Shown: positions 1,723 to 19,272 of the stretch, piece after piece | How the letters are laid out: the number at the start of each line of letters is the position of its first letter | How positions within the stretch are numbered: position 1 is the stretch's first letter | Source of the DNA: a virus | Reading direction: 5' to 3' (one strand) | Length of the DNA: 37,189 bases | Virus record (IMG/VR): IMGVR_UViG_3300049491_000677 | Location: 1 to 37,189 of that record | The notes under the pieces: generated by a model | The model's input: the letters and a program-made list of their open reading frames with translations, nothing else | What the model was told of the DNA's origin: nothing | The model's database searches: none | Made by a program: the position numbers and the translations under genes

Positions 1723-2038
1723 AATGACGCGAAAGGCAGGGCCGCCCCAAGAGACGCAATCCGAGCTAGATAGCCTCCTCGTTATTTTGCGGAAAATATA
1801 CGCGCAAGAAAAAGCTGGAAAGCGCCCTCTTGGCATGAATGATTGCAGGGTGGCGAATTGGGCGCTTGGCATTATCCCTATAGATGATGTTTTTGCGTTT
1901 TATCACCAAAGGCGCATGGCGATCTATCGCGCTGGGCTGGCGGATTGGTATGCGCGGTGGGACGCTGAAATCAGGCGGCAAGCGCCTAAGCCTGTTTCCC
2001 CCGATACCGTGCCGAGGTGTCCGCCCTATCCCCTGTGA
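1694..2038 (+). CDS. Hypothetical protein (about 105-114 aa)
   Basis: This is the last gene of the left plus-strand operon. The longest frame starts at 1694, overlapping the previous gene by 29 bases. An ATG at 1724, two bases after the previous stop codon, is an equally likely start, and neither has a clear ribosome site. The protein is basic and rich in Trp and Arg (DWYARWDAEIRRQ), suggesting a helical nucleic-acid or protein contact surface, but no family is recognised. It meets the minus-strand ParB-methyltransferase remnant tail to tail, with a 13-base overlap. Confidence 0.5.
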   Translation: MPFGHRANFEMTRKAGPPQETQSELDSLLVILRKIYAQEKAGKRPLGMNDCRVANWALGIIPIDDVFAFYHQRRMAIYRAGLADWYARWDAEIRRQAPKPVSPDTVPRCPPYPL

Positions 2039-3037
2039 TTACTGGTTATGTCCACGCCCCTTTGCGCAGCAACCTCCGCATAAGCTCCTCCGCCTTCAAG
2101 CATGGCAGTTTGGCCAGTGAAATTCTGCCATCTGATTATAGCTACGTCCACATAAGATGGATTGAGTTCAATAGCCAGAACCCGACGCCCGATCATCTCG
2201 CCTGCGATGATTGAAGTGCCGCTGCCACTAAACGGTTCATAAACAAAATCACCGGGCTTAGAGTTGTTCTCCATAGGTCGCTTCATGCACTCCACTGGCT
2301 TTTGGGTGCTATGGCCAGTTTCGGATTTTTGTGGCTTGCTGATGTCCCAGACGGTCGATTGCTTGCGTCCGCCGATATAATTTCCGGACCGCCCCTTGCG
2401 GACGCAATACCAGGCAGGCTCATGTTTTGGATGATAATCACCACGACCAATCACAAAGTTATTTTTGTTCCATATAATCTGCGCTCGTATTTCTAGCCCA
2501 GCACCGATGAGGCTTTGCGCAACAATGGGGGGGGGAGACCTCGTCATCTTCGCCCTGCCTGTCTATGTTGACTAGGCGTGCTAGTGATGCGCTAAATTCA
2601 TCATCGTCAAAGCCCGTAATTGAGCGCAAATCAATATCATCGGTCATTGCGGCAATAGCGGCCAATTCCTCGTCTAGGATTTGCTGATCCCAGCCCGCGT
2701 TTAGCGCAATTTTGTTATCCGCCAGCGCATAGGCCCTGCATTGCGCCTCGGTCCATGCAGAGCAATCAACAGCCGGGATCATTCCGTCTTTGATCGGTGT
2801 TCCATCCGGCCAGCGGATTGATTGGCCGCGCTCAAGCAATAACGCTACGCCATCCAAGCGCCCGTTACCCGCCCGCACTACGCCCGAAGCATCCGCCGCT
2901 ATCGGGACCGCAAAGCCAAATTCCGCGATAGAAGCCGCGATTTGCTCAATCTGCGCCTCGCTATGTGTTCGCGCATTGCGCGGGTCATGGGATAAGCTCG
3001 ATATAGCGCGAACGCCGACAGGATGGGGTTTGGTCAT
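2026..3037 (-). pseudogene. Broken ParB domain-DNA methyltransferase fusion
   Basis: The gene reads from an ATG at 3037. The first part is a ParB-like nuclease/partition domain (DPRNARTHSEAQIEQIAASI, then VRAGNGRL and ALADNKIALNAGWDQ). The second part, in another frame from about 2530 to 2026, is the C-terminal half of an N6-adenine methyltransferase, with EIRAQIIWNKN, HEPAWYCVRKG, TQKPVECMKRP and the cofactor-binding YEPFSGSGT. The halves join at a run of nine G's (2527-2535 on the plus strand), where one base fewer would put them in frame. Full-length relatives carry roughly 100 or more residues between these parts, including the catalytic DPPY motif, and that block is missing. The methyltransferase is therefore very likely inactive. 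The ParB half could still be made, with a short altered tail ending at 2459. Confidence 0.75.
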
Positions 3038-5593: not shown

Positions 5594-6663
5594 TTTGATC
5601 CTTTATCTCGGCATTCGGGAAATCCATTATGCAACACGCCGTCTAAATGGCGGCCAGCGGCTTTTTTGCCGACCCGCTCCATAAGTTGTAAGTCATCAAA
5701 TGCGTGTAATTCAATTTTTACTAATTGAGCGTATTGTTCGTTTAATTCTGATGATTTCCCGTTTTCAAACTCAACCGCTTGCCAATTCCCCCATTGCTTA
5801 AAAAAGAACGGGACGCCCGCCGCCGCGCATTAATCTCGCAGTGACCGCGCCCAATCGGGGTGCATCGGGCGAGCGCCGTGGCCGCTTTCGCCGCCAGCAA
5901 TTATCCAATCAATCCACGGCAAACACCCCCACTCCGGTGGGTATGGCAGCGGCATGGTTGAAGGCCAGTATTTCAAATCCTCGGCGCTTGGGCGCGGCGC
6001 AATGCTTGTTATGTTGATCGGCCCAAGCAACGGCTCGCAACTCAAAAATCGCACGGCGGCAGGGGTATCAAGCAAATCAGGGATGCGTTCATCGGCGCGG
6101 GCTTGATCCTCAACTGAAACGCCTAGCCAGACATTGGGTAGCGGCCACCCCACAAAGGACGGGTCTTCTTCTTTGGCGCGGTTGCCCAGCGGCTTAAGCC
6201 AGTCTTCGCCCTTAATCGACCAATCGCTTGCCTGTTCTATTATTATGAGCGCTATCCGCTCCGGTGTTTGTGGATCATTGCAATATTCCCGCATCCGCGC
6301 CGACCGCTTGGTCAAAATCTGGAACGTATGTTGCGGGCAAAGCGCCGCGACCGCGAAAACCTTGTCAATCACTTCATCTGGTACGGCGGGATGGAACAAA
6401 TCACTCATGCTGTTGACGAAAATCAGGCGCGGTTTTTTCCATTTGAACGGTTTTAGCAGCGCCGCCTCATTGAAATTCACCTTCCCTGTCCAGACAAAGC
6501 CTGCCTTACTTTTCTGCGTCGTGCCTTGATAGGACTCAACGCCCATAGCTTCCAGCCTACCCGCCATTTTCATCGCGTAGCAATTGGTGCATCCCGGCGA
6601 TGCCAGCGAGCATCCCACAACCGGATTCCAAGTCTCGTTTGTCCATTCAATATTGCTGGTCAT
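5590..6663 (-). pseudogene. DUF5131 (Gp37/Gp68) gene with one in-frame stop
   Basis: From ATG 6663 the frame encodes the DUF5131 (phage Gp37/Gp68) family: IEWTNETWNPVVGCS, the Cys cluster GCTNCYA, NVWLGVSVEDQARADERIP, FLSCEPLLGP, WIIAGGESGHGARPMHPDW. The family's three-Cys motif recalls radical SAM-like proteins. At 5832-5830 a TAA replaces the CAA (Gln) expected after ARSLRD. The same frame then continues with the normal family C-terminus (CAAAGVPFFFKQWG ... VGKKAAGRHLDGVLHNG) for 79 more codons to a stop overlapping the next gene's start. One C-to-T change explains the break. The product is either a 277-residue truncated protein, a readthrough protein or inactive. A sequencing error is also possible. 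Confidence 0.8.
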
Positions 6664-6957: not shown

Positions 6958-7173
6958 TTATTCAGCCTTCCTAATTAGATATGCCGCCGCCCTATGCGCT
7001 GCTACTTTTTTTGCATCCTCAAGATGGTAAAAACGCCCCCGCCCGCCCTCAACAACATAATAATCAACAGGCCCGTTTTTCTTAAAAGATGTGTCGATAA
7101 AAAGGCCGTGATGGCGAATATGCGCCGCCGCTCGCGGTTGCCGTTTTGACTTATCTGATTCGCAAATGTTCAT
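6958..7173 (-). CDS. Hypothetical small basic protein (71 aa)
   Basis: This is the first gene of the minus-strand operon that leads into DUF5131 and the RNase H-like gene. It is 71 residues and basic, with a central YYVVEGGRGRFYHLEDAKK segment resembling small beta-rich phage proteins. The start codon lies within a second copy of the ATTTGCGA-type motif (7159-7167), so a protein bound there could also affect translation or early elongation. The likely promoter is at 7184-7211. No family is recognised. Confidence 0.6.
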   Translation of the reverse strand: MNICESDKSKRQPRAAAHIRHHGLFIDTSFKKNGPVDYYVVEGGRGRFYHLEDAKKVAAHRAAAYLIRKAE

Positions 7174-7221: not shown

Positions 7222-7404
7222 TAAACGACAGGCAGGGTGAAAGTCTGCGGCCTGCTTATATTTGGATATTTTAGATTTTGCCCAAAAACCCCCTCCGCCC
7301 TCACCGGATTTAGTGCGGTCTGGCTCCGCAAGGGGTGCGACCCTGCCCTTTGCGGGCGTCGGGCAATTTTCCGGCGCTAACGCGGGCGAGCTGTTAGCGC
7401 CGGA
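7222..7404 (-). other. Noncoding stretch with strong hairpin
   Basis: No credible gene is seen between the tmRNA tag region and the next operon. On the minus strand a perfect 12-base-pair stem (7404-7393 with 7381-7370, loop of 11) follows the tmRNA coding piece. Further down come several GC-rich short stems and GGAGGGGGTTTTT (about 7288-7276), which could end transcription. The strong stem may be part of the tmRNA coding piece or mark its 3' processing point. Confidence 0.5.
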
Positions 7405-7767
7405 CCGCTTGCGCGGATAACGTCGGGGATTCTGTTGCCCGGCTCCCCGGAGCCGCGACCGCTGTTTAGGCGGCCAGTGCCATTGCTGGCTGGTTGTTGT
7501 TGACGGTTAAGTCTTCTTGTCCGCATTTCTCGGGGCGGGCCAAACCGGGGCGCAATCTATCTCAATCTGGAATGTCGATCCTGTTTCATCCCCATCAACT
7601 GCAACGCAACGCAACGCAACGGAGACAAACCGTTTTTCGCATCAAGATACTTATCGCCGCGACCAATTAGCTATTTTGGCTTGCGGTGCAGATGGTGGAG
7701 ATGGCGGGTACTGCCCCCGCGTCCATCCCTTCAATCAATAGGCCGTATATCGACCATAAACGGACTC
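7405..7767 (-). ncRNA. ssrA: Circularly permuted two-piece tmRNA (SsrA RNA)
   Basis: On the minus strand an acceptor piece ends at 7693 with CATCTCCACCA, preceded by a 5-bp T-arm (GCGGG/CCCGC, loop GGCAGTA). About 99 bases later the coding piece begins at 7593 with GGGGATGAAACAGGATCGACA, the classic tmRNA 5' end. GGGGATG and CATCTCC form the 7-bp acceptor stem with one G-U pair. This order, 3' half before 5' half with a spacer to be cut out, is the permuted gene form of alphaproteobacteria. The tag frame (7504-7466) reads VNNNQPAMALAA then TAA, preceded by TTAACC. The ALAA end is the usual protease signal; the start differs from the usual ANDN. tmRNA rescues stalled ribosomes and tags the products for breakdown. 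The acceptor 5' end and coding 3' end are not defined. Confidence 0.88.
7601..7620 (-). repeat. Pentanucleotide repeat in tmRNA intervening segment
   Basis: Four copies of GCAAC on the plus strand (GTTGC on the RNA strand) lie in the spacer between the acceptor and coding pieces of the permuted tmRNA. This spacer is normally removed, so repeat-length change would be tolerated. Confidence 0.75.
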
Positions 7768-8415
7768 TTAATCCCCTCGCAAATCTTCCGCAAGCTCTAA
7801 ATCATCCGGATCACATTCCGGCTCGGCCTCGCCTTGCGCAATGGGGCGCGGCTCGGCTTCGCCAGAAAAATATCGGCTATCGCATCCAATCCGCCGCATT
7901 TGGCTGTTGAACGCTCTGCGCTCGGCGTCATCAGGCGGTGGCAAAGGCTCGCGGGGACGACCGCCCCAGCGCAAGATAAATTGCGCCCGATTAATCGTTT
8001 TTTGCTCCGGACTTACCCATTCGGCGGCCAGCGCCTTTAACTGCGATATGGCGGGGAACCATTTTTCGGTGTCCAGCCATGCCCTGCAAGCGTAATAGAC
8101 CGCTTCGGCTGGCAGAGTACCCAAACGGCTCTTATAGGCCGCCAGCATGATCTTTCCGCCCAATTCACCGCTATCCCTGTGCGGCATGTGTGCCAGCCCT
8201 GCTAACGCTTGACGCAAATCATTCTCCTTGATCGGTGGAATGGCGGGCGGGCGGGCCGATGCAATAGGTATTAGCGCGGCGCGGTCGGCATCAGAGTAAA
8301 TTGTTGCCTTGATCGCCTCGATCCCATTGGCCTTGCTCAACACGGCTTGTACGCTCGTCGTCAGCAATTGCTCCGAGAAAACCGTTGCGACCTGATTCTT
8401 TGTTTCCGTTTCCAT
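7768..8415 (-). CDS. Putative replication protein (loader-like, lambda P position)
   Basis: This 215-residue soluble protein lies directly downstream of the lambda O-like initiator. The middle section (KIMLAAYKSRLGTLPAEAVYYACRAWLDTEKWFPAISQLKALA) is like phage replication proteins of the P or helicase-loader type, in which a helical domain ends in W-FP-x-xxx-L. The C-terminus is very acidic. The role as helicase loader is inferred from this likeness and gene order; no ATPase motif is present. GAGGAG stands 9 bases before ATG 8415, so the start is credible although it overlaps the initiator gene by 125 bases in another frame. The tmRNA follows directly. Confidence 0.55.
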   Translation of the reverse strand: METETKNQVATVFSEQLLTTSVQAVLSKANGIEAIKATIYSDADRAALIPIASARPPAIPPIKENDLRQALAGLAHMPHRDSGELGGKIMLAAYKSRLGTLPAEAVYYACRAWLDTEKWFPAISQLKALAAEWVSPEQKTINRAQFILRWGGRPREPLPPPDDAERRAFNSQMRRIGCDSRYFSGEAEPRPIAQGEAEPECDPDDLELAEDLRGD

Positions 8416-9016
8416 GATTTTTGCTCCTCAAAAACTTATCTGCATTCCGCGCCCACGTCCGCCATGCCGCTTGCCAATCAAGCATCAACGACCCTCGGGA
8501 TTTGTGATAATCGGCAAATTGCGCCAGCTCATGTTTAATCCGATGCGCTGGCCAATTATCGACAGCCTCTTTGGTAAGGCCAGTCATTATCGGTTCAAAT
8601 CCATCCGGAAATTGAGATTTGTTTTTTGGCTTTTTGCCAAAAATGGTGGTTCCTTGGTGGTTCATTGATGGTTTGGGTGCGAGATTTGCAGGGGTGGGGT
8701 GCAATTCTTGCAGGGGTATAGGTGCGAAATTTGCAGGGGGTGCGAGATTTTCACCCCCTGCAAGACTATCTGGATGAATGATATAAACCGTGCTTGTTCC
8801 TGTCCGCTGGCGGCGGCTTAAATGTCCGCCAGTTTCCAATTCAAGCAGCATAGCAAAAATTGTGCGCTCGGACCTTGAGCAGCGCCGCGCTATTGTTGGT
8901 ATGGCTGGCCAGCAATATCCCTCGTCATTTGCTTGATCGGCGAGCGCCAAAAGGACAATCTTTTGGCTGGCCGCCAATTCCATATCCCAAACCTGATTCA
9001 TAAGGCGAATGCTCAT
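8291..9016 (-). CDS. Replication initiator with HTH domain (lambda O-like)
   Basis: Residues 1-85 form a winged helix-turn-helix of the phage/plasmid replication initiator type (MELAASQKIVLLALADQAND, CWPAIPTIARRCSRSERTIF, LSRRQRTGTSTVYII). A Pro-rich linker with repeated ANFAP/ANLAP phrases follows at about 88-120. The C-terminal domain contains LMLDWQAAWRTWARNA, common in lambda O/DnaT-like replication proteins. It should recognise origin repeats and load the replisome. The linker DNA itself contains direct repeats (8676-8758), the arrangement of lambda, where the origin lies inside gene O. The start overlaps the stop of a 26-codon upstream frame (ATGA). Confidence 0.75.
   Translation of the reverse strand: MSIRLMNQVWDMELAASQKIVLLALADQANDEGYCWPAIPTIARRCSRSERTIFAMLLELETGGHLSRRQRTGTSTVYIIHPDSLAGGENLAPPANFAPIPLQELHPTPANLAPKPSMNHQGTTIFGKKPKNKSQFPDGFEPIMTGLTKEAVDNWPAHRIKHELAQFADYHKSRGSLMLDWQAAWRTWARNADKFLRSKNHGNGNKESGRNGFLGAIADDERTSRVEQGQWDRGDQGNNLL
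8600..8763. other. Putative replication origin with iterons
   Basis: Inside the initiator gene are three direct repeats of about 20 bases, GGTGCGAGATTTGCAGGGGT and variants, at 8676-8695, 8698-8717 and 8721-8740. A fourth partial copy starts at 8739. The last part forms a perfect 12-bp inverted repeat (8731-8742 with 8752-8763, loop of 9). Next to it lies an A/T-richer stretch with T and A runs (about 8600-8650), which could melt. The layout of iterons in the linker of the initiator gene plus an adjacent AT-rich element mirrors lambda ori. Confidence 0.65.
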
Positions 9017-18459: not shown

Positions 18460-19272
18460 TTACAAATCCGCTTCAATTGCGCGGCGTATAGTGACCAATC
18501 GGCGGACAATATTGTATAGACTATCCAAATGGATGCTATTGGGGCCATCGCAAGGGGCGTTATCGGGATCGGGGTGGCACTCCATAAACACTGCATCGCA
18601 GCCCGCCGCTACCGCCGCCGAAGCCAATGATGGAACCATCGTCCTATCGCCGCCGCTGGCATTGCCTAATGCGCCGGGCAATTGAACGCTATGGGTTGCA
18701 TCAAAACAAACCGGCCGCTGCGTTGCGCCGTGCATGATTTTGATTCCGCGCATATCGACAACCAGATTGCCGTAACCAAAGGCCGTCCCGCGCTCGCATG
18801 ACATGACGTTTTTATTGCCAGCGGCGCGGCATTTGTCGATCACGCCCGCCATATCTTGCGGGGCCATCCATTGCCCTTTTTTGATATTCATCGGCTTGCC
18901 ATAGGCTGCAACGCCTTTGATAAAATCAGTCTGGCGGCAAAGAAAAGCGGGAGTCTGGACAATATCGACAACCGGACAAACTGCGCCCGCTTGGCTTAAA
19001 TCATGCAGGTCGGTTAAGATTGGCAATTCAATTTGGTCGCGCACTTGCTGCAATATCCGCAGCCCTTCGTCTATGCCGACACCGCGAAAGCTGGAATCAC
19101 TGGTTCGGTTGGCTTTATCGAAGCTAGATTTGTAAATGATCGTGACGCCAAAAGCCTCGGCAACCCTTGAAATCTCGGCGGCGCAATAAAGCGCATGGTC
19201 CAGCGTTTCAATCGCGCACGGCCCCGCAATAAAGAACAGTTCGTTTGATAGGTCTTTTCCGGCGATTTGCAT
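18460..19272 (-). CDS. kdsA: Kdo-8-phosphate synthase, metal-dependent type
   Basis: This enzyme condenses arabinose-5-phosphate with phosphoenolpyruvate to Kdo-8-phosphate. Family motifs are intact: FFIAGPCAIET, KSSFDKANR, FRGVGIDEGL, QTPAFLCRQTDF, NIKKGQ, GYGNLVVDMRG, DATHSVQLPG, FMECHPDPDNAPCDG. The Cys of GPCAIE (residue 19) with the His of ATHS, the Glu of MECHP and the Asp of PCDG are the ligands of the metal-dependent class, as in Aquifex. E. coli KdsA has Asn at the Cys position. Length is 270 residues, normal for the family. It lies two bases after kdsB and is last of the cassette, before the lysis genes. It acts in the cytoplasm. Confidence 0.93.
   Translation of the reverse strand: MQIAGKDLSNELFFIAGPCAIETLDHALYCAAEISRVAEAFGVTIIYKSSFDKANRTSDSSFRGVGIDEGLRILQQVRDQIELPILTDLHDLSQAGAVCPVVDIVQTPAFLCRQTDFIKGVAAYGKPMNIKKGQWMAPQDMAGVIDKCRAAGNKNVMSCERGTAFGYGNLVVDMRGIKIMHGATQRPVCFDATHSVQLPGALGNASGGDRTMVPSLASAAVAAGCDAVFMECHPDPDNAPCDGPNSIHLDSLYNIVRRLVTIRRAIEADL

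Follow-up and report, generated by a model that had tools for sequence, protein, structure and literature searches.

The window considered here, the whole of a linear IMG/VR virus record of 37,189 bp, contains what looked on first reading like a two-piece tmRNA gene. It raises the questions of whether the gene is real, whether it belongs to the virus or to the host, and what a virus would do with it. Phage tmRNAs are usually explained as genes taken from a host. The anatomy and structure of the gene, its phage context and its membership in a phage lineage can be observed directly and are described below. The locus is probably a complete and functional phage-encoded, alpha-type permuted two-piece tmRNA, from which the phage would most probably gain ribosome recycling during infection, with tagging secondary.

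The original prediction placed a permuted, alpha-type two-piece tmRNA at 7405-7767 and proposed Infernal with Rfam and ARAGORN as checks, both of which support it. RF01849 (alpha_tmRNA) is matched end to end (model 1-355) from 7797 to 7421 on the minus strand, with a cmscan score of 109.3 bits (E 3.7e-29) against a gathering threshold of 50. RF04321 (tmRNA_permuted) is also matched end to end, from 7755 to 7466 on the minus strand (91.0 bits, E 1.9e-16, gathering threshold 47). The permuted tmRNA called by ARAGORN spans 7375-7785 and has the tag VNNNQPAMALAA*. The E-values of the covariance models exclude a chance match. The parts of the gene are as follows.

7421-7797, minus strand: whole permuted tmRNA gene, as the covariance-model span (RF01849 and ARAGORN)
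7693-7755, minus strand: upstream piece, comprising the T arm, acceptor 3' strand and CCA of the tRNA-like 3' part (RF04321 alignment; 5' boundary approximate)
7704-7720, minus strand: T arm, GCGGG-GGCAGUA-CCCGC (covariance-model alignment)
7697-7703, minus strand: acceptor 3' strand CAUCUCC, which pairs 7/7 with 7587-7593
7594-7692, minus strand: 99-nt intervening sequence, predicted to be removed on maturation, with ends that can pair (CUGCA/UGCAG), a GCGUU repeat and a UUGAU leader at its end
7421-7593, minus strand: downstream piece, with acceptor 5' strand, D-like region AAACAGGAUCGAC, tag frame and 3' pseudoknot region (covariance models and sequence)
7505-7513, minus strand: GACUUAACC, just 5' of the resume codon, common to other valine-resume phage tmRNAs (sequence comparison)
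7466-7504, minus strand: tag frame GUC AAC AAC AAC CAG CCA GCA AUG GCA CUG GCC GCC UAA (ARAGORN; the RF04321 match ends at 7466)
7424-7454, minus strand: 3' pseudoknot, a GGCU/AGCC stem plus CGGGGA/UCCCCG, with conserved GGCAACAGAA (read from the sequence and aligned to the RF01849 consensus)
7371-7403, minus strand: perfect 11-bp hairpin without a U run, just past the mature 3' end (fold); possibly a 3'-end stabiliser

The half that bears CCA is encoded upstream of the half that bears G1, with the spacer between them, which is the permuted order and is evident in both the sequence and the covariance models. G1, read from the sequence, lies at 7593, and the acceptor stem formed by the two halves (GGGGAUG/CAUCUCC) includes a G3-U70 wobble, the identity mark for alanine. 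Directly after the acceptor 3' strand come A73 and an encoded CCA (7693-7696, the terminal A at 7693). The relatives described below have acceptor stems of other sequences (GGGCCUG/CAGGUCC, GGGCGUG/CACGUCC, GGGGGUG/CACCUCC) in which compensatory changes preserve the pairing, and the acceptor structure is thus kept by selection. The T stem likewise departs from its family consensus (CCGGG/CCCGG) through a compensatory change, to GCGGG/CCCGC. The two-piece reading is therefore borne out by both Rfam families, by ARAGORN and by the acceptor pairing, on the minus strand. The predicted span does contain the tmRNA, but the mature gene runs instead from about 7755 to 7421.

The tag frame is short and closes with a hydrophobic-AA end of the ClpX type (LAA) and a stop. 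It opens with the resume codon GUC (7502-7504) and keeps N2 and N4, so that the tag starts VNNN rather than ANDN. The comparison with host tags recommended at the outset confirms that this start is unusual: alanine codons begin 39 of 40 ARAGORN calls from hosts (some of them one gene fetched twice), and the single exception reads VANKG..., outside the pattern V-N-[DN]-N. The valine is real, but the implication that it is peculiar to this phage does not hold, since valine-resume tags occur in 10 other viral contigs and three cultured phages. A direct scan for the valine pattern found it in 0 of 385 alphaproteobacterial genomes, a count that shows little alone, as the matching alanine pattern was found in only 4. 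A second host resume-codon pattern, with a fixed trailing GC, gave matches that look like chance and was set aside. The chromosomal tmRNA L269 (alphaproteobacterial genome G061) has the ARAGORN tag VANKGIQVAAFAAAA with an apparent valine start, which may reflect a mis-set frame.

Valine at this position is a tolerated change and not a new principle, since it is known from Helicobacter pylori and is workable in E. coli, where GUA or GUC can function as resume codon, although GUA-type tags are sometimes ineffective (PMC2862035). The H. pylori tmRNA resembles that of the window in resuming at valine (GUA), but it is chromosomal, not phage-borne, and its tag body is unrelated (PMC2862035).

I infer that the tmRNA is expressed, processed and active in rescue, to the benefit of the phage. 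It would be read together with the neighbouring minus-strand genes as a single transcript, which would be cut on the CCA side and, by RNase P, at G1, so that the 99-nt spacer drops out and the acceptor and neighbouring stems hold the two pieces together. Host alanyl-tRNA synthetase would charge the RNA by way of G3-U70, and host SmpB would deliver it to ribosomes stalled on non-stop mRNAs. Use of the host proteins is expected because the phage has no recognisable SmpB (no SmpB domain was found in the window). Translation would then restart at GUC and add (A)VNNNQPAMALAA, whose LAA end would feed host ClpXP. The phage would gain by having ribosomes recycled at a time when host and phage mRNAs are being cut.

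The tag itself might instead be the point, if the main role were to mark chosen proteins for degradation, either host proteins for amino-acid recycling or targets that escape the host's adaptors, with the changed start redirecting adaptor choice. The substitution of VNNN for ANDN fits this idea, and protein recycling has been proposed for phage Melnitz (PMC9004378). I nonetheless consider it unlikely, for the LAA end, N2 and N4 are all kept while the tag body varies freely among relatives, and an E. coli test phage needs rescue and not tagging: SsrA mutants blocked in rescue reduce phage plating to near 1e-5, as compared to 0.9 with a minimal-tag mutant (table in PMC2862035). Since rescue matters more than tagging for that phage, by analogy ribosome recycling would rank above tagging for the window tmRNA as well. 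Still less probable, indeed very doubtful, is that the RNA serves as a decoy that competes with or inhibits the host's trans-translation. The window copy is divergent, and PMC11915505 cites a precedent in the tag-less tmRNA of mycobacteriophage DS6A, but a decoy needs no tag, and this RNA has an intact tag frame and resume codon as well as an intact pseudoknot and G3-U70.

The genes near the tmRNA all lie on one strand, the same as its own. Those closest to it are:

7768-8415, minus strand: 215-aa ORF of unknown function, immediately upstream of the tmRNA
8291-9016, minus strand: phage replication initiation protein (phrog_1032, 1.2e-24), on the upstream side
6958-7173, minus strand: 71-aa ORF of unknown function, downstream of the tmRNA
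5830-6663, minus strand: DUF5131/phrog_2045 phage protein (Gp37/Gp68 family), on the downstream side

Upstream there is also a gene for a RusA-like resolvase, and the downstream side has small unknown ORFs and an RNase H-like protein in addition to the DUF5131 protein. Farther off are genes for RecT-like protein and exonuclease VIII, endolysin, tail proteins and a major capsid protein that is closest, among named relatives, to those of Erythrobacter phages (48% identity). The host of the virus is probably an alphaproteobacterium. The left end of the window bears a weak match to small terminase; neither a large terminase nor a portal gene was seen in the window, and the record is for that reason probably not quite whole. 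I saw no convincing promoter adjoining the tmRNA, and no riboswitch match in the window at gathering level. Elsewhere, at 2026-3037 (minus strand), two overlapping ORFs in different frames match positions 38-196 and 286-445 of the phrog_498 profile (ParB/DNA methyltransferase), the mark of a split or frameshifted gene.

These surroundings bear out the claim that the tmRNA is phage cargo: the record is viral, replication, recombination, lysis, tail and head genes lie around the RNA, no integrase was found, and the RNA groups with phage tmRNAs. It is highly improbable that the RNA is a fragment of host ssrA, whether carried for attachment or acquired through imprecise excision, or that it marks a misassembled joint with the host chromosome (the outcome the original prediction named as fatal to it). 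Although ssrA is a common integration site (PMC11915505), the gene is complete and internal to the record rather than a partial gene at a prophage end, phage genes flank it with none from a host seen on either side, and the sequence groups with phage copies. No match to integrase (PF00589) was found in the window, and this, together with the completeness of the gene, led me to reject an attachment-site remnant. Nor does anything suggest that the host had lost its own ssrA, a loss that the original prediction thought the copy might make good. The tmRNA does appear to be an accessory, dispensable gene, since 0 of 50 whole records of phages sharing the DUF5131, replication or capsid protein, and thus related by single genes, contain a permuted tmRNA.

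The relatives of the RNA were reached only via valine-type sequences; blastn of the window tmRNA against named phages gave no match. The tag pattern V-N-[DN]-N was found in 8 viral contigs, and ARAGORN or Rfam identified a permuted tmRNA in all 8. Five of these were checked for phage genes, which are present (portal, terminase, capsid, primase, ribonucleotide reductase). A further pattern, GACTTAANNGTCAACRACAAC, was found in ten contigs, two of them new, and both of these also have tmRNAs. Among named phages located by sequence similarity, valine-start permuted tmRNAs occur in Erythrobacter phage vB_EliS-L02 (VNDNDVVVARDEVRLAA), Caulobacter phage CcrSC and Mesorhizobium phage Cp1R7A-A1, and alanine-start ones in DSS3_MAL1, DSS3P8, RcSimone-Hastad, RcXuper and Lacusarx. 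Most of the copies in named phages are unannotated in their records; this is so in GenBank for Cp1R7A-A1, CcrSC, vB_EliS-L02, RcSimone-Hastad and RcXuper. The best match to the window tmRNA (L232) is 72% identical, and a recent host donor is thus not apparent. The RF04321 score of the window tmRNA, 91 bits, lies below those of all 42 host matches over the cut-off (115-166), and some drift or partial loss of function may therefore have occurred. Two contigs, L227 and L229, have nearly identical tag-bearing halves and different tRNA-like halves, a mosaic that suggests recombination within the tmRNA gene.

Trees were constructed from sequences with the spacer removed (104 in the first tree), over about 200 columns and with a host sample of about 34-40 alphaproteobacterial genomes, which may or may not include SAR11. 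In the first tree the window tmRNA and all sampled valine-resume phage tmRNAs fall on one branch apart from the hosts (96/94), and after the addition of Lacusarx, CcrSC and one more contig the hosts are on one side (100/96) and 17 phage sequences are together (95/86), although branch details and support values from so short an alignment are rough. The phage group is separate from 34 alphaproteobacterial chromosomal tmRNAs and includes cultured phages of Erythrobacter, Mesorhizobium, Caulobacter and Sphingobium. Lacusarx, with its GCC alanine codon, nests among the valine types. A strict valine-only clade was accordingly dropped, and the GUC codon appears to be typical of the phage lineage without being diagnostic of it. 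Some contigs of the generic viral set, gathered in the first pattern scan, may be misfiled host DNA (L120 groups with hosts). Judged by its sequence, the window tmRNA is a member of an old phage-borne lineage and not a recent capture from a host. The lineage spans very different phages and stands apart from the sampled host copies, a distribution that speaks for ribosome rescue as a function that phages maintain.

The precursors of the phage tmRNAs also have features in common. UGAU or UGAC stands directly before G1 in the window tmRNA and in 16 of 16 valine-resume or named-phage sequences, but in just 2 of 38 host tmRNAs (Fisher p 7e-12), a comparison chosen as cleaner than one with the generic viral set in view of its possible misfiled contigs. 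Later additions (Lacusarx UGAU, L231 UCAU, CcrSC UUAU) bring the count to 17 of 19. Spacers are longer in phages, with group medians of 80-98 nt against 25 nt in hosts. Counted in a fixed register, a spacer-end helix of at least 7 pairs is found in 7/9, 6/6 and 89% of three phage sets, and in 8-13% of shuffles. The helix sequences are completely different between phages, with pairing kept. The end helix of the window spacer runs uninterrupted for a short stretch and is taken up again after a bulge by the GCGUU repeat. I rejected the helix as an exclusive property of phages, since 39% of host spacers of 15 nt or more (9 of 23) also have at least 7 pairs.

Taken together, alphaproteobacterial phages may have in common an old tmRNA lineage that is their own and circulates horizontally. 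Its marks would be GACUUAAnn ahead of the valine codon GUC, UGAU ahead of G1 and a long spacer closed by a helix, with the consequence that processing and translation restart would differ somewhat from those of host tmRNA, a generalization that I offer tentatively. In a limited literature search I found no account of phage-borne tmRNAs that form a lineage, resume mostly at valine and have such precursor features in common; the UGAU leader and the spacer helix may have been described before. If there is indeed a separate phage lineage, host and phage tagging could be distinguished in the infected cell: with the distinct tag start, mass spectrometry could tally phage-tagged and host-tagged proteins apart, which would test directly what the phage tmRNA is for. 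Such experiments are feasible with named phages, since several cultured alphaproteobacterial phages carry unannotated copies.

Phage-borne two-piece tmRNAs are already known, as in Melnitz and Lacusarx, and the window adds a member. A 2021 survey counted 53 unique two-piece forms among 402 tmRNA-bearing phages (PMC9004378), and a 2025 tmRNA database holds 79 unique phage sequences (PMC11915505). Methylophilales phage Melnitz (PMC9004378) resembles the window in having a complete permuted alpha-type tmRNA in a phage genome without integrase, but Melnitz is a marine myophage of 141 kb, and a glutamine riboswitch accompanies its ssrA. The ssrA of Sphingobium phage Lacusarx (KY629563, PMC5648845) shares the phage group, the TGAT leader and the terminal spacer helix, and differs in its alanine resume codon and its tag, ANDNDVVTAEVRLAA. 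Erythrobacter phage vB_EliS-L02 (OL955261) has a valine-resume permuted tmRNA of the same group, but a different tag body, in a 150-kb genome with a large tRNA cluster. Alphaproteobacterial chromosomal ssrA (RF01849) has the same permuted architecture, acceptor and T stems, and an ANDN-like tag ending in LAA, but it starts with alanine save for the one exception noted, its spacer is usually shorter, and the UGAU leader is rare.

The neighbours of some permuted tmRNAs deserve mention. In DSS3_MAL1 and DSS3P8 the permuted tmRNA is directly preceded by a GOLLD giant RNA (L275, 896-1359; L279, 715-1148). The window encodes kdsA (KDO-8-phosphate synthase, an LPS-sugar gene) at 18460-19272 on the minus strand (NF003543, 1.2e-111, above cut-off), and relatives of kdsA are found 1-2 kb from permuted tmRNAs in four short "viral" contigs (L009, L065, L104 and L110).
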